Assembly (NCBI GenBank): GCA_913057235.1
Contig: CAJXNI010000006.1
Span: 1 to 64,000, forward strand
From: an uncultured Bacteroidota bacterium
Lineage (GTDB): Bacteria > Bacteroidota > Bacteroidia > Flavobacteriales > Schleiferiaceae
Length of the DNA: 64,000 nt
Reading direction: 5' to 3'
The notes under the pieces are model-generated. The model was not told where the DNA came from. It saw nothing but the letters and a program-made list of their open reading frames with translations, and did no database searches. The translations under genes and the position numbers were made by a program. Shown here one piece after another: positions 21,072-29,735 of this stretch. The stretch's first letter is position 1; each line of letters opens with the position of its first letter.

Positions 21072-22322
21072 ATGGCGCAGCGAGTAGTGAAAAATATTGG
21101 CTTTTTAGGCCTTTCGCAAGCGGCTAATTACCTGTTGCCGCTTATAACCATTCCATATATTACAAGGGTGGTGGGGCCGCAAAATTATGGGCTTATAGAA
21201 TTTGCTTCTACCGCTATGCTTTACTTTTCGTCAGTGGTGATCTATGGATTTGGTACCACGGGAACACGTCTAATTGCCCAAAAACCCCAAGAAATAGACC
21301 ATGTATCTACGGTTTTTTCATCCGTATTATTAACGCGACTCAGTCTTTTTCTTTTCAGTACTCTGGTTTTTATAGCTTGTATTTATACCATTCCCAAATT
21401 TGGTGAAGAGCGTCTTTTAATGATTACGGCTTTTCCTTTGGTTTTAGGCTGGGCGCTTTACCCAGCCTTTATATTTCAGGGAACGCAAAAGTTGCAATAT
21501 GTGGCCATTGCCAATTTTGCCGTAAAAGCCATAGCCGCCCTGGCAATTTTCATTTTCTTGCAAGAACCAGAAGATTTTTTCTTGGTGTTGGGCATTAACG
21601 CAGGGGCTCAAATTTTAGTAGCAATTCTATTACTGATTCTTTCCTTTAGGCTGTTGCCAGGGCTGCATTTAAAACCGGTAAGTTTGAGGGGAGTAAAATC
21701 ATACCTTACGGAAGGGAGCTATGTGTTTTTGTCGAACTTTTTCATGCGCATCAGCAAGTTTAGCCCAGTCCTGTTTATAGGCCTTTATCTGGCAGAAAGC
21801 CAAATAGGATTATTTGCAGCCAGTTTAAAGCTGGTAGTGGTAGCACATAGCTTCTTGTTTTTGCCCTTAGCTGGTGCTATGTTTCCCCATCTAGCCAATG
21901 TGTTTGCCCGAGATAGAAACCTCTATCTTAAAAACCTAAAACGCTCTTTTTACACCATGCTGGCTATTGGGGCTGTGAGTTCTGCAGTAATTATACTATT
22001 CCCTAATTTCTTTATCAGTCTGGTTTTTGGACCAGATTATTTGCCAGCTGTACCTTATTTACAGATTATGGCTCCTCTTTTAACCTTTGCCGTAGTGAGT
22101 CATTTTAGTTTACAGCAGGGACTTAGCGTACTTAGTAAAGATAAAACCTACCTGGGTATAGTGGTGTTGGTAGGTATTGTTACGGTTGTATTGAACGTAA
22201 CTTTAATAGAACCTTACGGAATAAGGGGTGCTGCCTTTATTAAACTTTCGGTAGATGTATTCCTAGCTTTACTAGGCGCTTATTTTTTCACTAGAGCTTG
22301 GCGCAATTTGCCAAATCCTTAG
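21072..22322 (+). CDS. Wzx-like oligosaccharide flippase (PST family)
   Basis: 416 aa with about twelve membrane segments. The N terminus NIGFLGLSQAANYLLPLITIPYITRVVGPQNYG is the classic pattern of polysaccharide exporters of the MOP/PST group, here broken by no gap. It should flip undecaprenyl-pyrophosphate-linked oligosaccharide across the inner membrane for the ligase/polymerase proteins of the locus. Its end overlaps the convergent sulfotransferase gene by four bases. Confidence 0.88.
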   Translation: MAQRVVKNIGFLGLSQAANYLLPLITIPYITRVVGPQNYGLIEFASTAMLYFSSVVIYGFGTTGTRLIAQKPQEIDHVSTVFSSVLLTRLSLFLFSTLVFIACIYTIPKFGEERLLMITAFPLVLGWALYPAFIFQGTQKLQYVAIANFAVKAIAALAIFIFLQEPEDFFLVLGINAGAQILVAILLLILSFRLLPGLHLKPVSLRGVKSYLTEGSYVFLSNFFMRISKFSPVLFIGLYLAESQIGLFAASLKLVVVAHSFLFLPLAGAMFPHLANVFARDRNLYLKNLKRSFYTMLAIGAVSSAVIILFPNFFISLVFGPDYLPAVPYLQIMAPLLTFAVVSHFSLQQGLSVLSKDKTYLGIVVLVGIVTVVLNVTLIEPYGIRGAAFIKLSVDVFLALLGAYFFTRAWRNLPNP

Positions 22323-23179
22323 AAATAACCGTAAGTTTTTAGATCGCTGGCTGTGTAGTTATCTAATAATCTATTGTTTTCCTTATTTAACTCCACTGCT
22401 TTCTGCCTGGTGGAAGAAGAGAAAATGTGTTTTTTAGAGAGGTGCCGCCACAAGTAAGGGTCTAAAACCTTTTGGTAGAGCTGGCGAAAATTTTGGCTAC
22501 TAATACCTTTCCAAAGCAAATGTGAAGGGCGGTAATTATTAAAGGTGAAATGATTGATAATGCGTAATTGCCCGATTGAAAGGCTGGATAACGAGCGATT
22601 TAAATTTGTTGGGTTTTCTAAAGCTTCATAGCCCTCCGCCTTGCAAAATTCTTGTATTCGGCTTTCGGTTACACTACTGTTTTCAAGCAGTTCTTCCTGG
22701 GCCAGCACCAGTACATTTTCTTGTCCAAAAAGCCCGCAATAGCGCTTCACCAAAGGGTAGTAATCTAAATAGGACCAGCTAAAAAAGTTGTAATTCTTAA
22801 GAAAAGCCTTGGACTTCAATACTCCACCTTGTTGCACGTACTGCCTGTAAATGGCTTCTAGCATTAGGTCTTGCCTCCTTATGGTTATTATAATTTTTGC
22901 GAAGCCTAAGTTTTTTAAGCGATGAGCAATTTCTAAATTATAAGTCCCAAGTCCCATGGTGCCGGTAAGGGCTTCTAGCGAATACAATGCCTTTTTACTT
23001 TTATCCAGTTTTACTGAAATATGCTCAGGCTCGTACTCCAGGCTGGTAGACTGATGTATGGAAGTCAAAAGTTTTCTGCAAGTGTCGTAATCATAAAATT
23101 GTATCCCTTTCAAGCGCGGAAACAAATTTCGTTGCAAGTAGGTGGTGCCCGTTTTATGATAGCCTATGTGTACAATCAT
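22319..23179 (-). CDS. Sulfotransferase family protein
   Basis: 286 aa. The 5'-phosphosulfate-binding loop of PAPS-dependent enzymes is at the very start (IGYHKTGTTYLQ, residues 5-16) and the 3'-phosphate motif at about 97-105 (IIITIRRQD). The rest fits the Sulfotransfer fold with a variable C-terminal part. It probably adds sulfate to the glycan made by the locus. It runs opposite to the surrounding genes, one base after the unknown 342-aa gene, forming a two-gene unit with it. Confidence 0.8.
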   Translation of the reverse strand: MIVHIGYHKTGTTYLQRNLFPRLKGIQFYDYDTCRKLLTSIHQSTSLEYEPEHISVKLDKSKKALYSLEALTGTMGLGTYNLEIAHRLKNLGFAKIIITIRRQDLMLEAIYRQYVQQGGVLKSKAFLKNYNFFSWSYLDYYPLVKRYCGLFGQENVLVLAQEELLENSSVTESRIQEFCKAEGYEALENPTNLNRSLSSLSIGQLRIINHFTFNNYRPSHLLWKGISSQNFRQLYQKVLDPYLWRHLSKKHIFSSSTRQKAVELNKENNRLLDNYTASDLKTYGYF

Positions 23180-23180
23180 G

Positions 23181-24209
23181 TTATGTGCATAACAATTTCA
23201 ATTCAGCTGGGGTCTTAATTTGGTCAAAACCCCAATACTCCGCTACAGCCGCGTACTGCTCAGGACTTATATCCTCACGGTAGTCTTTAAATAGCTCCGC
23301 AAAATAGCCTCGTTCGGCCTTCACATTTTCTATAATTTCAGAATCGCTTCGGCTGCTATGGCGTTGCGCTTCTTTTGGGTCACGGCTTTTTTGTTCTACG
23401 GTTTGCCTAAAAATATAATGAGGCTTGTTCAAATAAATACAGTACCCCGTTTGGGTACCCATGCCATTGCTCATGGTTACATCAGCTAATTCTATGTGGC
23501 TGCGCTGGCGGTTCACAAAATGGCGATCAAATTTATGGCCTGCTGTAATTACTTTAAAGCCGGCTTTTAAATAAGGCTTAACGCGATGCTCTTTTTGGGC
23601 GTCTAAATAATAGAGGCTTATTAAAACCGTGTCAAAACCTGAGGCTACCTTCTTAATTTCACCTATTAATTGCTGCTCTTCAAAGCCTGCTTCTACTCCC
23701 TTCATGCTGTGAAATGGAAAAACCAAAAGTACCCGACCTAATTCTCTTTTAAGGGTTGCCAACTCAGAAGCATCTAACAAACCTTTGGCATAATGAATAT
23801 AAGGACCCACTGCGATGGCCTTTTTTTGCGGTAGCTTTTCATTCAAGATCGAAACGCGTTTTTCACTCATGGTGAGCACTTTTTTAAAGTGCCAGCAAAA
23901 TTGATCGGGATGCACAATGCCGCCTAAAAACAAACCATGCTCCATGTAGGCTTTAAGGTCTGAGCTAATACCCGCGTAGTTTTTTAGAGCCTGCGCATAG
24001 CCATACAGGTTATTATCAATTACGTGTTCATCAGGTCCATAAGGTAAATCGGCCGAGAGGCTCTGGTAATCAAAAAAAGAAAGCCGGGCCCGCCTGGCTA
24101 TTTCTTGATGCACCGCCTTACCATTGCGCATCCTGTAAAAGTGAAACAAGCTACTTTCTAAAATGGCAAAACGGGCACTAAGGCGCTTGACTCTATCTTT
24201 TAAATGCAT
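23181..24209 (-). CDS. Unrecognised protein of the polysaccharide locus
   Basis: 342 aa, no signal peptide or membrane segment. I do not recognise the family. The second half has a Rossmann-like look ([37 protein letters not shown]) and ends with the loop [21 protein letters not shown], which resembles the donor-binding end of GT-B glycosyltransferases where a glycine-rich turn is followed by an acidic or polar helix. A glycan-linked role is inferred from this and from its pairing with the sulfotransferase gene. It has its own promoter, divergent from the acyltransferase gene. Confidence 0.5.
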
Positions 24210-24304: not shown

Positions 24305-24850
24305 TTGAGCCAACTTCGTAAACATCTAAAATTCACTTGGAAGCATAGGTTTCGGGCGCACTGGCAAAAAAACAGGTTGGGCCGTTTAGGTTCAAGCGTG
24401 TGGCTAGATAAAAACGTGGAGTTTATGCGGTTTCCCCGAAATGTGGAAGTAGGGGAGGCTGTGGTGGTAAAAGAAGGGGCCCGTATTTGCGCTTGCAACG
24501 CCCAGGCCAAAATTAGCATAGGCGCCCGCACTACGGTGGGCTACCATACCTTTATTTTTGCTTCTGAGTCAATACGGCTGGGTAGTGATTGTCTCATAGC
24601 GCCCTTTGTCTATTTGGTAGATAGCAATCATAAAATTGACAAGGGGCAAAATATAAATACCCAGCCCAATGAAACCGCCCCAATAACCATTGGAAACGAT
24701 GTGTGGATTGCCAGTAACTGTACCATTTTAAAGGGGGTAACCATTGGTGATGGTGCGGTAATAGCGGCAAATTCAGTGGTGAATAAAGATGTAGGTGAAA
24801 ATGAAATCTGGGGCGGCAGCCCTGCAAAACACATTGGCCATAGAAAATAA
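24305..24850 (+). CDS. Hexapeptide-repeat acyltransferase (left-handed beta-helix)
   Basis: 181 aa from a TTG start. The isoleucine/valine-rich hexapeptide repeats run from about 45 to 170 (for example [43 protein letters not shown]) and end with the usual GGSPAKHIG. The catalytic histidine region of O-acetyltransferases is seen as DSNHKID. It probably acetylates a sugar of the glycan. The next gene starts inside or just after its stop. Confidence 0.85.
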
Positions 24851-24851
24851 A

Positions 24852-25562
24852 GTGGGCATAGTACTATTGGCACGCTACAATTCTAGAAGGCTGCCGGGCA
24901 AGGCTTTGAAAAAAATAGCGGGGAAACCAGTTTTATCGTACATCATTGAGCGCCTTAAAACCGTAGTGCCAACCCAACAAATAATTTTGGCCACCAGCAG
25001 TAATAAATCAGACGATGTGCTGGCCAACTATGCTAAAGATATAGGTATAGCCTGCTTCCGCGGCTCCTTAGAAAAGGTAGCCTTACGATTTTATGAAGCT
25101 GCCCAGCAGCTAAATTGCACCTATGCTTGCCGCATTAATGGAGACAACATTTTTTTAGATCCTGCTGTGTTAGCCACTATGGTGCAGGAGGCCCAGCAAG
25201 GGCAATACCATTTTTTGAGTAATGTTAAAGCGCGTACTTTCCCCAAGGGTATGAGTGTAGAAATTGTGGCCATGGCCTATTACCAAAAACACCTTACTAC
25301 CATTTTAAACAGCGCTTATTACACTGAACACGTAATGGTATACCTTTATGAGTTGGCTGCAGCCGATGCCCATTTTTACCTTGAAAACAAAGAACTACCC
25401 GAAGCGGCTGGCTTGCAGCTGGCTTTAGATACCCCAGAGGATTTTGAGCGCAGCCAATGGATTTTGCAAAACTTAAAGGTCCCACACACTCAGGCCGACT
25501 TGCGTAAAATTGCCGCCTTAAATGAAAAGTATCAAAAGTACATAAAATCGCATAATAGCTGA
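24852..25562 (+). CDS. SpsF-like cytidylyltransferase
   Basis: About 236 aa if read from the GTG at 24852, one base after the previous stop; a TTG at 24834 would add six residues and overlap that gene. Nucleotidyltransferase fold with the signature VLLARYNSRRLPGKALKKIAGKPVL, interrupted here only by normal substitutions, a second nucleotide-binding part ILATSSNKSDD and the metal region RINGDNIFLDP. Members of this SpsF/CMP-KDO-synthetase-like family activate sugar acids with CTP. It lies between acyltransferase and NeuB-like genes, so its likely substrate is the sugar acid made by the latter. Confidence 0.8.
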   Translation: MGIVLLARYNSRRLPGKALKKIAGKPVLSYIIERLKTVVPTQQIILATSSNKSDDVLANYAKDIGIACFRGSLEKVALRFYEAAQQLNCTYACRINGDNIFLDPAVLATMVQEAQQGQYHFLSNVKARTFPKGMSVEIVAMAYYQKHLTTILNSAYYTEHVMVYLYELAAADAHFYLENKELPEAAGLQLALDTPEDFERSQWILQNLKVPHTQADLRKIAALNEKYQKYIKSHNS

Positions 25563-25565
25563 TAA

Positions 25566-26591
25566 ATGAATCCAAAAAGCCCTTTTAAAGGAAAACACGG
25601 CCCCTTACTGTTAGCCGAAATTGGTGGTAACCACGAGGGCGATTTTGAATACGCCAAAAAGCTTACCCAATTGGCCATTGACACTGACGTGGACATGGTT
25701 AAATTTCAAATTTATACGGGCGACTCTCTGGTTTCAAAACTAGAAAGTCCTACCCGAAATAAGCATTTTAAAAAATTTGAATTGAGCCAGGCACAGCACC
25801 TTGAGCTGGCTGAAATGGTTACCAAGGCGGGCATTATGTATACCTCCTCGGTTTGGGACCTATCGGCCATAGCCTGGCTTGATGCTTACATTCCTATTTA
25901 CAAAATCGGCAGCGGTGACCTTACCGCCTATCCTGTTTTAAGAGATACCGCAAAATTGGGCAAGCCGTTAATTATTTCTACCGGTTTAGCTACTGAAGCT
26001 GAGGTTTTGGAATCTATAGCTTTTATTCAAAGTGTAGATCCCATTTATAGAAAACCTGAAAATTTAGCGATTTTGCAATGCACCAGCATGTACCCCATAA
26101 ATCCAGGCGATGCACACCTTAGCGTAATGGGCCGCTTGCGCGAAAAAACAGGACTTACCATTGGCTACAGCGATCATACCGAAGGAAGCAAGGCGTTGCA
26201 ATATGCCACCGCTATGGGGGCTGAGGTTTTAGAATTTCATTTTACCGATGAACGGGCTGGGAAGTCTTTTAGAGACCACAAAGTAAGCCTCATGCCCCAT
26301 GAAGTAAAAGCCTTAATAGAAGAAATAAAGCTTATTCAACAGTTGCAGGGTCATCCGCTTAAAGCGCCTACCCAAATTGAATTAGATAACGGCCACGAGC
26401 TATCTTTTAGAAGAGCCGTTTACCCTAAAACTGATTTACCGGCTGGCACTATTTTAAGTGAAGATAATTTAACGGTATTGCGGCCTAACCACGGCATAGA
26501 TGCCCGGGAGTTTGATAAACTTTTAGGAAAAAAGCTGAACCAAAGTGTGCAGGCTCATCAAAAACTAAGCTGGGATTTTATAGAAGATTAG
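25566..26591 (+). CDS. NeuB/SpsE-like sugar-acid (nonulosonate) synthase
   Basis: 341 aa. TIM-barrel part with LLAEIGGNHEGDFEYAKKL, DMVKFQIY, KIGSGDLTAYP, LQCTSMYP and TIGYSDHTEGS, all matching the N-acetylneuraminate/pseudaminate synthase family; the metal histidine lies in EFHFT (usually EKHFT). Residues about 280-341 form the C-terminal SAF (antifreeze-like) domain with RRAVYPKTDLPAGTIL. It should join phosphoenolpyruvate to a hexose to give a nine-carbon (or related) sugar acid. No NeuC-type epimerase or PseB/C genes are nearby, so the precursor must come from elsewhere or the product is unusual. Confidence 0.87.
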   Translation: MNPKSPFKGKHGPLLLAEIGGNHEGDFEYAKKLTQLAIDTDVDMVKFQIYTGDSLVSKLESPTRNKHFKKFELSQAQHLELAEMVTKAGIMYTSSVWDLSAIAWLDAYIPIYKIGSGDLTAYPVLRDTAKLGKPLIISTGLATEAEVLESIAFIQSVDPIYRKPENLAILQCTSMYPINPGDAHLSVMGRLREKTGLTIGYSDHTEGSKALQYATAMGAEVLEFHFTDERAGKSFRDHKVSLMPHEVKALIEEIKLIQQLQGHPLKAPTQIELDNGHELSFRRAVYPKTDLPAGTILSEDNLTVLRPNHGIDAREFDKLLGKKLNQSVQAHQKLSWDFIED

Positions 26592-26593
26592 GA

Positions 26594-27211
26594 ATGGTGC
26601 AGTACTATTTAAGAACTTTTAGACCTAAGTTTTTGGGCTGGCTAACCCGGCTTGTTTACCGTGGCAAGAATGTGCATTTTGGTAAAAACTTCCGCTGTGA
26701 CGCCATTCCTAAAATTCTTATTGATAAAAATGCCCAACTTCACGTTGCAGATCATGTAGAGTTACGCAGAAGTATTGAAATAAGAGTACACCAACGGTCT
26801 AAAATTGTGATTGGGTCTAAAGTACGGATAGACCGAGGGGTAAGGATTTTAGCCACCAACACTGCCCAAATTACACTGCATGAAGGGGTGCGAGTGGGTT
26901 TATATACTGTGTTTAACGGAGGCGATGACATTACGGTAGGAGCCCGTAGCCTAATCTCAGGATTTGTTTATTTACAAACCAGTATGCATGGTTTTAAAGA
27001 TAAATCCGTAGCTGTGCAAAAACAGGGTTATACGCACGCTCCGGTGCAGCTAGAAGAAGATACCTGGTTGGGGGCACATGTAGTAGTTTTGCCAGGCGTT
27101 ACCCTGGCTAAAGGAGTAGTTGTAGGCAGTAATGCGGTAGTTACTAAACCGGCTGCAGCCTACACTATTTTGGGGGGCGTACCGGCCAAGATGCTCAATG
27201 AAAGAAACTAA
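26594..27211 (+). CDS. Second hexapeptide-repeat acyltransferase
   Basis: 205 aa, 2 bases after the NeuB-like gene. Hexapeptide repeats from about 40 to 195 (KILIDKNAQLHVADHVELR, KIVIGSKVRIDRGVRI, ITVGARSLISGFVY) with the expected histidine in TSMHGF and the C-terminal GGVPAKML. The region around VFNGGDDITVG replaces the usual N-acetyl donor loop. It probably puts an acetyl or other acyl group on the glycan. Followed by the GT2-fusion gene after one base. Confidence 0.85.
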   Translation: MVQYYLRTFRPKFLGWLTRLVYRGKNVHFGKNFRCDAIPKILIDKNAQLHVADHVELRRSIEIRVHQRSKIVIGSKVRIDRGVRILATNTAQITLHEGVRVGLYTVFNGGDDITVGARSLISGFVYLQTSMHGFKDKSVAVQKQGYTHAPVQLEEDTWLGAHVVVLPGVTLAKGVVVGSNAVVTKPAAAYTILGGVPAKMLNERN

Positions 27212-27212
27212 C

Positions 27213-28580
27213 ATGCAAAAGCCCTTAATTACCGTTTACATCACCAACTATAATTACGAGAAATACATAGAGCAATCTATTGAAAGTGTGCTGGCCCAAA
27301 GTCTGCAAAATTTTGAGCTGCTTATTATTGATGATGGTTCTACTGATAACAGCAAGAATATTATAGAGCGTTACCGCGATGATGAACGCGTGACCATAAT
27401 TTATCAGCAGAATAAAGGCTTAAACATTACCAATAATGTGGCCATGCGTGTAAGCCGCGGTGAATACATTATGCGGCTAGATGCCGATGATTTTCTAGAC
27501 CCATCGGCTTTGGCCGAAATGAGCAATTTATTAGAGCAAAATTCTGAGTTGGGTTTGGTTTTTCCTGATTACTATTATGTAAATGCAGCAGGGCAGATTA
27601 CCGGAGAAGAGCGCAGGCATAATTTTGAAAAGGAAGTTTCACTTTACGATCAGCCTGCCCACGGTGCTTGCACCATGATTCGGTTAAGTTACCTTAAAAA
27701 ATTAGGGGGCTACAATGAGAGTTTCACCTGCCAGGATGGTTATGACCTGTGGCTAAAGTTTATTACCCACTACACGGTAAGCAACATAAATAAGCCGCTT
27801 TTTTACTACCGCAGGCATGGCGAAAATTTGACCACCAATGAAAAGCGCATATTAGACACACGCAGAGCTATTAAGGAAGCTTTTTTAGCCGAGGAAAAAA
27901 ACCGGTACCAGAGTACCTTAATGGTAATTCCCGTGAGGAATACCCTCATTAATGGGCAAAGCTGGCCCCTTTATAAAGTACAGGGCAAAAGTATTTTAGA
28001 GCAAAAAGTGGCTACTTGCTTAGAGGCCCAATGCTGCGGTGAAGTTGCGGTAGTATCTTCTGATCAAGAGATTTTAGCATTTGCGGAAACCACTTTTAGT
28101 CACAATGACAAGGTGCAAATAATAGAGCGGCCAGCAAGCTTGGCCGGCCCAAACCAAACCTTAGGTGCCACGGTAAATCTTGCCGTGCAAAAGGCTCAAA
28201 AGAAAGACTTAGGCTACGTGCTTACTGCGGCTTTGGAATATCCGTTTTTAAGCGCCTCTATGCTAGACGATGCCTTAAATACTTTACTGCTTTTTAAGTC
28301 AGATGCGGTGCTAAGTGTGCGGCCCGATAATAAAAGTTATTACCGCCATACGGGTCATGGGCTTAGCCCCATTTTGGACCAGGAAAAGTTCACGCGCCTT
28401 GAGCGTGAAGCTTTGTACAAGGCGGCAGGAGGGCTTATGCTCAGTACCTTAAGTAGCTTTCGAAAAAATTTAAAGATAAATTCAGGGCAAATTAGCCACG
28501 TGGTGGTAGATGAAAAAGCCGCCTTTGGGGTACATAGCGAATTTGATTTTGAGGTTTTTCAAAGTTTGGCTAAATCCTAA
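27213..28580 (+). CDS. GT2 glycosyltransferase fused to a degenerate CMP-sialate-synthetase (NeuA)-like domain
   Basis: 455 aa from the ATG at 27213, one base after the previous stop (a further ATG at 27198 overlaps that gene). Residues 1-225 are a complete GT2 domain: VYITNYNYEKYIEQSI, IIDDGSTDNS (38-47), RLDADDF (88-94), QDGYDLWLKF. Residues 235-455 follow the outline of NeuA: MVIPVR (start of the P-loop), ERPASLAG, the LTAALEYPFLSASMLDDAL strand-helix and FGVHSEFDFEVF. Key NeuA residues are changed: the K/R-rich P-loop reads NTLINGQSWPLYKVQG, and the metal motif DIDTxxD reads GVHSEFD. The C-terminal part may bind rather than make CMP-sugar. The fusion suggests transfer of the locus's own sugar acid. 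Confidence 0.75.
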   Translation: MQKPLITVYITNYNYEKYIEQSIESVLAQSLQNFELLIIDDGSTDNSKNIIERYRDDERVTIIYQQNKGLNITNNVAMRVSRGEYIMRLDADDFLDPSALAEMSNLLEQNSELGLVFPDYYYVNAAGQITGEERRHNFEKEVSLYDQPAHGACTMIRLSYLKKLGGYNESFTCQDGYDLWLKFITHYTVSNINKPLFYYRRHGENLTTNEKRILDTRRAIKEAFLAEEKNRYQSTLMVIPVRNTLINGQSWPLYKVQGKSILEQKVATCLEAQCCGEVAVVSSDQEILAFAETTFSHNDKVQIIERPASLAGPNQTLGATVNLAVQKAQKKDLGYVLTAALEYPFLSASMLDDALNTLLLFKSDAVLSVRPDNKSYYRHTGHGLSPILDQEKFTRLEREALYKAAGGLMLSTLSSFRKNLKINSGQISHVVVDEKAAFGVHSEFDFEVFQSLAKS

Positions 28581-28643: not shown

Positions 28644-29735
28644 TTGACAATAGCTCAAACATACGCGTATGCCCCACTGGTGGCCTTGCTGCTGGCTTTT
28701 GCCATAACCTATTTTTCCATACCGGCTATCATACGGCTTAGCCTAGTTAAAAAGCTGTATGATTTACCCGATGCTCGCAAGAAACATGCGGCCCGCATTT
28801 CGCCTTTAGGAGGCATGGCCATTTTTGGAGGCATGATTATTTCCTTTGTCTTTTGTACGGCCCACCTGGCCAACCCAGCTTTAAATTCTGTTTTAGTAGC
28901 CCTTTTCATTCTCTTCATTACCGGAGTAAAAGATGATTTATACCCCTTAGTGCCTTATAAGAAATTAATTGGGCAGGTACTGGCGTCTGCCATAGTGGTT
29001 ATTCAAGGGAATGTAAGGCTTGAGAGTTTTTACGGCATAGCCGGTGTGAATGAACTGCCCTATGCCGTAAGCTTAATTTTAAGCATTGTTTTTTTTCTAG
29101 GCATTATTAACTCCTTTAATTTTATTGACGGCATAAATGGTTTAAGCTCTAGCTTGGGTATTTTGGCCAGTGGCGTGTATGCACTTTGGTTTTTGTATTT
29201 ACAAGAGCCTTTATTTTTGATTTTGAGCCTCTCTATTTTGGGGTCGCAATTGGCATTTTTGCGTTACAACTTGTGGAAAGCAAAAATCTTTATGGGTGAT
29301 AGCGGCAGCATGATATTGGGGTTTTTAGCGGCTTTGCTTACCATTTATTTTTTGCAGGCCAATGAGCAAGCAGAAGTGGTGGTGCTGCGCAAAATAGACG
29401 CCATGGTTTTTGCCTTTTCGGTGATTATTATCCCTGTTTTTGATACCGCCCGGGTAATTTTCATTCGCTTATTTATTCTAAAACGTTCTCCCTTTACCGC
29501 TGATAGGAACCATATTCATCACGCATTATTAGACATAGGTTTAAGTCATGCCCAGGCCAGCCTGAGCCTATTGGGTGTAAACGTATTACTGGTATTATTT
29601 ACTTTTCTTTTAAACCCGGTTATTAGAGCTTCACTTTTGTTTACCCTGCTTATTATCTTGGCGCTGGGTCTTTCTCAAATACCGTTTTTTATTAAAAAAG
29701 CACAAAAAAAGCGTGGACAGTATCCCTCAGGCTAA
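28644..29735 (+). CDS. WecA/TagO-like undecaprenyl-phosphate sugar-1-phosphate transferase
   Basis: 363 aa, TTG start, about eleven membrane segments. Diagnostic motifs of the MraY/WecA superfamily: D97-D98 in GVKDDLYP, NFIDGINGL (159-167), FMGDSGSMILG (217-226) and RNHIHHAL late in the chain. It should start glycan assembly by moving GlcNAc-1-phosphate or a similar sugar onto undecaprenyl phosphate at the inner membrane. It overlaps the following ligase-like gene by 23 bases, so both are made together. Confidence 0.9.
   Translation: MTIAQTYAYAPLVALLLAFAITYFSIPAIIRLSLVKKLYDLPDARKKHAARISPLGGMAIFGGMIISFVFCTAHLANPALNSVLVALFILFITGVKDDLYPLVPYKKLIGQVLASAIVVIQGNVRLESFYGIAGVNELPYAVSLILSIVFFLGIINSFNFIDGINGLSSSLGILASGVYALWFLYLQEPLFLILSLSILGSQLAFLRYNLWKAKIFMGDSGSMILGFLAALLTIYFLQANEQAEVVVLRKIDAMVFAFSVIIIPVFDTARVIFIRLFILKRSPFTADRNHIHHALLDIGLSHAQASLSLLGVNVLLVLFTFLLNPVIRASLLFTLLIILALGLSQIPFFIKKAQKKRGQYPSG

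Follow-up and report, generated by a model that had tools for sequence, protein, structure and literature searches.

Why would a glycosyltransferase carry a sialic acid-activating domain that looks unable to activate anything? This question is raised by a gene at 27198..28580 (+) of a 64,000-nucleotide stretch of DNA (hereafter the window) from an uncultured Bacteroidota bacterium. An initial annotation made from the sequence alone had described the product as a normal GT2 enzyme over its first 225 residues, followed by about 220 residues that follow the course of CMP-sialate synthetase (NeuA) with altered catalytic motifs. It had proposed that the second domain could bind a CMP-sugar and hand it over directly to the first.

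A GT2 glycosyltransferase joined to a NeuA-derived domain

The open reading frame at 27213-28580 (+) encodes 455 residues. An in-frame ATG at 27198 adds five more, giving a protein of 460 residues; a start at this position would overlap the 3' end of the upstream gene (26594-27211). The gene is defined by its reading frame, Pfam matches and 12 full-length homologues. Its N-terminal part (residues 1-225; 27213..27887, +) is an intact-looking GT2 glycosyltransferase, as first described. PF00535 matched residues 12-161 of the 460-residue form (E 2e-29, 103.1 bits against a cut-off of 23.3), and the corresponding part of the structural model has a GT-A fold, matching 6p61_C (Z 27.9, 187 aligned residues, 1.5 Å). 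DAD at 90-92 and D175 (in CQDGY), which we take to be the DxD motif and the downstream catalytic aspartate, are kept in 13/13 fusions.

The C-terminal part (residues 235-455, 221 amino acids; 27915..28577, +) was matched by no Pfam family above cut-off. The window copy falls below the cut-off of PF02348 (CTP_transf_3), which was passed by 4 of the 9 fusions scanned (4 of 8 relatives). When the domain was searched by itself, NCBIfam gave TIGR03584 (PseF) as the top match, at 27.3 bits against a cut-off of 205.7, and a sequence search of solved structures returned nothing significant (best E values 1.3 and 0.053). NTP_transf_3, IspD, MocA/MobA, GlmU and KdsB gave sub-cut-off matches only and were rejected as the family of this domain.

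Profile comparison and structure prediction gave a clear assignment. Aligned by hhalign, 12 fusion C-terminal domains matched NeuA-type proteins at 99.7% (E 6.7e-27, 217 columns), the NeuA-type profile being made of 17 of 20 comparators with L054, L060 and L061 left out. The same domains matched 11 SpsF-type enzymes from the same loci at 33.9% only, so that an SpsF-type origin was also rejected. In a full-length model whose alignment held just the 12 fusion sequences (pLDDT 80.5, below 50 in the arm at 372-404), residues 230-455 had the CMP-Kdn synthetase 9t4z_A as top match among solved structures (Z 23.4, 199 aligned, 2.8 Å), followed by the CMP-sialate synthetases 6ifd (Z 22.8, 203 aligned, 3.0 Å) and 1eyr (Z 22.8, 213 aligned, 4.4 Å). 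A model of the C-terminal domain only, with 17 NeuA-type rows added to its alignment (pLDDT 92.4), matched 9t4z_A (Z 23.9, 213 aligned, 3.0 Å), 6ifd_C (Z 23.6, 213 aligned, 2.3 Å) and 1eyr_A (Z 23.5, 215 aligned, 2.7 Å). On profile comparison and predicted structure, the C-terminal domain is NeuA by descent; this agrees with the initial annotation, and the profile searches yielded no family that fits better.

The fusion is rare but spread across several families

Full-length fusions were found in 7/99 genomes of relatives and in 7/395 genomes of the order, and strong matches to the C-terminal domain in 7/296 relatives, 2/395 genomes of the class and 1/395 of the phylum; the window's own genome is counted each time and the samples overlap. 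A pattern scan of genome contigs detected 10 fusion loci, five apparently from genomes already counted and five additional, in Marivirga sericea, M. aurantiaca, Parachryseolinea silvisoli, a Lewinella MAG and a Flavobacteriia MAG. The fusion is rare and patchy, yet spread across several Bacteroidota families. The survey of the domain pair that had been called for added 12 full-length copies to that of the window, and the occurrence of 13 copies in several genomes rules out an assembly artefact.

No stand-alone close relative of the C-terminal domain was seen, since matches with E < 1e-50 were all in frames of at least 459 amino acids. Weaker matches (E 1.4e-14 to 5.5e-4) corresponded to 20 NeuA-type proteins, mostly stand-alone by length and three with extra domains. 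In the frame L040 1441-3114 (558 amino acids), a canonical NeuA-type domain is followed by a C-terminal part matching Glyco_tran_28_C (PF04101, 1.3e-6), presumably PseG-like.

Residues required for cytidylyl transfer are replaced in all fusions

The 13 fusions were compared with these 20 NeuA-type proteins as comparators, assumed to be active, using the residue numbering of NmCSS. The former P-loop (residues 243-252, NTLINGQSWP; 27939..27968, +) belongs to an altered loop, NTLINGQSWPLYKVQG, at residues 243-258 of the 455-residue form. In 13/13 fusions, K21 is replaced by W, I or L, N22 by P (A in one) and K16 by I or L (a gap in one); the alignment of this loop is uncertain by a few residues between MAFFT and hhalign, which places gaps there, and neither alignment retains K21-N22. 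Replacements were also found in 13/13 fusions at Q104 (A, S, T or P), T106 (E or D), S107 (Y or F) and Q166 (L or I). At the former metal motif (GVHSEFD, residues 439-445; 28527..28547, +), D209 became G (F in one) and D211 became F, H, Q, N or K. The comparators kept K21, N22, Q166 and D211 in 20/20, and K16 and Q104 in 18/20 (Q104 being H in two). Position 209 varies among them (E in 9, D in 6 and N in 5), which makes D211 the stronger mark of loss.

The cost of such changes is known from NmCSS. According to PMC2901514, the activity of D209A was too low to measure, D211A had a 15,000-fold lower kcat, Q104A raised the Km for Neu5Ac about 40-fold, and mutants of Q104 and K142 lost activity heavily. 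K142 is uninformative here, because this position is W in 18/20 comparators. In NeuA, N22 contacts the ribose and R12, G14, S15, K16 and K21 contact phosphate (PMC6580227, in extract). Some positions persist: R12 (R242 in the window copy, immediately before the former P-loop) and R71 are kept in 13/13 fusions, and the position of R165 holds R in 9/13 and K, a conservative change, in 4/13. R12 is a phosphate contact and R165 contacts the carboxylate of the nonulosonic acid (NulO, a sialic acid-like sugar), as described in extracts of PMC2901514 and PMC6580227. The pocket residues S82 and Y179 are changed in all fusions as well, so the old pocket may bind something else, or nothing.

A displaced active site was also considered. 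No further D-x-D was seen in the aligned C-terminal tails, where D445 corresponds to NmCSS D215. D433 and H429 are invariant in fusions at positions occupied by S203 and L199 in NmCSS, and are possible candidates for such a site. The altered loop and metal motif of the initial annotation were found throughout the family (K16, K21, N22, D209 and D211 in 0/13 fusions), and the alignment showed no shifted copy of the NeuA residues. Judged by these residues, the domain should not activate sugars the NeuA way.

The fusion lies in a conserved, putative nonulosonate locus

In the window, the conserved block begins with a WbbJ-like hexapeptide acyltransferase gene (24305..24850, +; profile matches and locus comparison), followed by an SpsF-type cytidylyltransferase (24795..25562, +; PF02348, 1.1e-26), a NeuB-type nonulosonate synthase with a SAF domain (25566..26591, +; the only PF03102 match of the genome) and a second hexapeptide acyltransferase, identified by profile match (26594..27211, +). 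A WecA-like polyprenyl-phosphate sugar-phosphate transferase (28644..29735, +) lies directly downstream of the fusion in the 7 loci of the window's family. NeuB adjoins the fusion or is one gene away in 13/13 loci (it is cut by the contig start in L049), and the SpsF-type and WbbJ-like genes are found upstream in all 12 loci whose contigs extend that far. What separates NeuB from the fusion varies: an acyltransferase is encoded there in 6 loci and a methyltransferase in 6, and 1 locus has no gene at this place. In genomes G028 and G050, NeuB is fused to a class I methyltransferase (622 amino acids; L023 7288-9156 and L025 10076-11944), which suggests tailoring of the fresh nonulosonate.

The SpsF-type enzyme is likely to be the CMP-nonulosonate synthetase of the locus. 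The residues which, from their motifs, we take to be its P-loop and metal motif are invariant in the 11 enzymes aligned, out of 12. Besides this enzyme, the genome encodes one other CTP_transf_3 protein, which from its score and length is probably KdsB. No NeuC above cut-off was found in this genome, one match being below. The other genes of the locus are plausibly sufficient to produce and activate a nonulosonate, and the C-terminal domain of the fusion therefore need not do so. Searching from the SpsF side, 19/395 genomes of the class had a match at E 1e-40 or better. Only two matches reached 1e-100 or better (the window and G937), both with a fusion alongside, and 4 of the other 17 genomes inspected (G682, G944, G826 and G973) had no fusion within 13-16 kb; the search profile was built from members of the module, making this test of coupling partly circular. 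A promoter scan was at chance level (12 versus 13.4) and terminators numbered 16 versus 9.8; neither was used as evidence.

On the opposite strand, window 22319-23179 (-), inside the block, is sulfotransferase-like (PF00685 below cut-off) and had no match in the stretches of 12 relatives. Its neighbour at 23181-24209 (-) is conserved at 57-62% identity in the 7 loci of this family and had no Pfam or solved-structure match and a single NCBIfam row at E 0.056; as a guess, it is possibly a NulO transferase. Near the Lewinella fusion, L049 6228-7403 encodes another NeuA-like domain, which narrowly misses the PF02348 cut-off, lacks the usual P-loop and is fused to a HAD-type phosphatase. Candidate NulO transferases of other loci were below cut-off, MptE-like in L069 and L046 and polysialyltransferase-like in L049, and a solved-structure search with candidates from L069, L049 and L047 gave no match. 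A GT42-like assignment of L046 and L069, suggested by a motif, was supported by no match and was dropped. Beside the Marivirga sericea block, L045 2483-3913 encodes a BFO_1060-family glycosyltransferase (NF046086, 6.9e-135). It may be kin to T. forsythia GtfS, a transferase of a Pse derivative (PMC6120980, in extract).

These data bear on the idea that CMP-NulO remains a ligand of the C-terminal domain and is delivered to the GT2 domain, which would then be the NulO transferase of the locus. Of the glycosyltransferase genes in the window, the fusion alone has a counterpart near NeuB in every one of the 13 loci, and R12 and a basic residue at R165, which in NeuA contact phosphate and the NulO carboxylate, are retained. 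Against it, the ribose contact N22, the phosphate contacts K16 (gapped in one fusion) and K21 and the Mg ligand D211 are all changed in 13/13, and L045 has its BFO_1060-family enzyme while other loci have unassigned candidates. GT2 enzymes, moreover, normally use UDP-, GDP- or dTDP-sugars. The direct hand-over proposed in the initial annotation is weakened by these losses and only partly sustained by the two retained basic positions, and we regard it as unlikely. Since the NulO transferase candidates of the loci are weak or unassigned, the GT2 domain itself could still be a NulO transferase.

The disarmed domain remains under constraint

The 13 fusions form a single clade (support 100/100), separated from the comparators by branches of 2.45 + 0.85 changes per column under midpoint rooting. 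Among seven pairs, the only one unsaturated for dN/dS gave 0.02/0.47 (about 0.04) for the C-terminal domain and 0.004/0.427 for GT2. Identity to the window in 12 relatives was 64-86% for GT2, an apparently unusual constancy, and 30-68% for the faster-evolving C-terminal domain. The trees of the two domains had few well-supported forks and were set aside as evidence of co-inheritance.

The best-conserved stretch of the C-terminal domain is the former dimerisation arm (residues 369-407, VRPDNKSYYRH...EREALYKAAGG; 28317..28433, +). With the near-copy L006 dropped, mean entropy in 12 fusions was 0.71 in the arm versus 1.56 in the core, compared with 2.15 versus 1.81 in the 20 comparators. The arm/core ratio was 0.45 in fusions (12 rows) and 0.79 (6 rows), 1.10 (5 rows) and 0.62 (3 rows) in small NeuA clades, a contrast that is suggestive only. 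The old pocket was defined by positions backed by extracts of PMC2901514 and PMC6580227 (12, 14-16, 21, 22, 77, 80, 82, 104, 165, 166, 175, 179, 192, 193, 209 and 211), to which neighbours were added (17, 71, 76, 102, 103, 106, 107, 176 and 177). Outside the arm, the entropy of this pocket was 1.15 versus 1.56 for the core, a value as low being reached in 0.9% of random draws; including arm positions made the result less striking (2.4%). The pocket of the comparators was much more conserved than that of fusions (0.89 versus 1.81 for the core). Fusions also share invariant polar residues that are unusual in comparators, namely R370, H379, Q390, H429 and D433, together with E or D at T106. The single clade, the dN/dS of about 0.04 and the conserved arm indicate that the C-terminal domain is not decaying, and the pattern of conservation is more in keeping with a rebuilt part than with a relic.

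Conservation centred on the arm, which dimerises NeuA, could mean that the domain merely joins two GT2 units and that its old pocket is irrelevant. The pocket is, in agreement with this, far less distinct from the core than in the comparators. However, it still beats the rest of the core outside the arm, and the invariant polar residues and the acidic T106 position also speak against a pure scaffold. We consider this explanation improbable, to the same degree as direct hand-over.

Discussion

Starting from the fold, the loss of residues in a single clade, the continued constraint and the constant neighbours, we tentatively favour, as a possibility somewhat short of an even chance, a GT2 enzyme dedicated to a NulO glycan, whose dead domain has been kept for dimerisation and substrate recognition. 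The C-terminal domain would derive from a CMP-NulO synthetase, would already have lost cytidylyl transfer when the known copies diverged, and would have been rebuilt. NeuB would synthesise the NulO, the SpsF-type enzyme encoded nearby would activate it, and the adjacent acyl- or methyltransferase would tailor it. The constancy of GT2 and its match in all 13 loci imply that the fusion probably performs a step specific to this sugar; the GT2 domain may extend an acceptor that carries NulO, or NulO itself, by a sugar. The conserved arm of the disarmed domain would make the enzyme a dimer, and the old synthetase pocket would help to recognise the NulO-bearing acceptor. Dimerisation through the arm is predicted from sequence conservation, and this prediction is tempered by one small NeuA clade that is also well conserved there (ratio 0.62, 3 rows). 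A bolder version, in which a CMP-NulO synthetase domain has become a new module for catalysis or acceptor binding and a single chain thereby links NulO recognition with the addition of the next sugar, is rather doubtful at present.

Two other roles can be considered. By analogy, the domain could act as a sensor, adjusting flux by binding either the nucleotide sugar or the catalytically competent SpsF-type enzyme, as GMPPA, a dead nucleotidyltransferase paralogue, binds GDP-mannose and inhibits GMPPB (PMC11228364, in extract). Like the fusion domain, GMPPA retains a non-catalytic nucleotidyltransferase fold, but it is a free-standing protein controlling a GDP-mannose enzyme, whereas the dead domain described here lies within a glycosyltransferase chain. 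An SpsF-type partner is near in every locus whose contig reaches it (12/12). This enzyme belongs to a different branch (33.9% by hhalign, versus 99.7% for NeuA), however, so that a heterodimer is not expected by descent, and the nucleotide contacts are lost; a sensor role thus seems slightly less probable still than either hand-over or a scaffold. Least probable is a rebuilt active site that would catalyse a different reaction, with NulO or a nucleotide sugar as substrate. In its favour are the long branch and the new set of residues conserved after it, the acidic T106 position (13/13) and the invariant H429 and D433, a few positions N-terminal to the former metal motif, but no known catalytic motif was recognised.

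The fusion can be set beside several known proteins. With CMP-sialate, CMP-Kdn and CMP-Pse synthetases (NeuA and PseF; 1eyr, 6ifd, 9t4z and 9ftc) it shares a fold that spans the entire domain, as well as R12, a basic residue at R165 and the arm stretch. Unlike in those synthetases, K16, K21, N22, Q104, Q166 and D211 are replaced, the domain lies behind a GT2 enzyme and the arm is its best-conserved part. In Campylobacter jejuni, the CgtA-NeuA fusion also joins a glycosyltransferase to a NeuA domain in a sialic acid locus, but that NeuA is active, whereas the domain described here is disarmed and accompanied by a separate SpsF-type enzyme. K4CP and heparosan synthase 2, which headed the Foldseek results for the full-length model (TM about 0.4), likewise combine a GT2-type domain with another domain in a single chain; this other domain is itself a glycosyltransferase, and that of the fusion is NeuA-derived. 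Given the CgtA-NeuA fusion, the statement of the initial annotation that no enzyme of this build was known may be too strong for the general build. The combination of GT2 with a disarmed NeuA domain was described in no title or abstract opening among the matches listed in a literature search on such fusions and dead domains.

The fusion looks like an activating enzyme that was disarmed, yet kept by selection inside a glycosyltransferase. Similarity-based annotation could mislabel it as a bifunctional synthetase. Should the domain prove to recognise nonulosonic acids but not to activate them, it would mark a class of enzymes that build on sialic acid-like sugars in environmental Bacteroidota.
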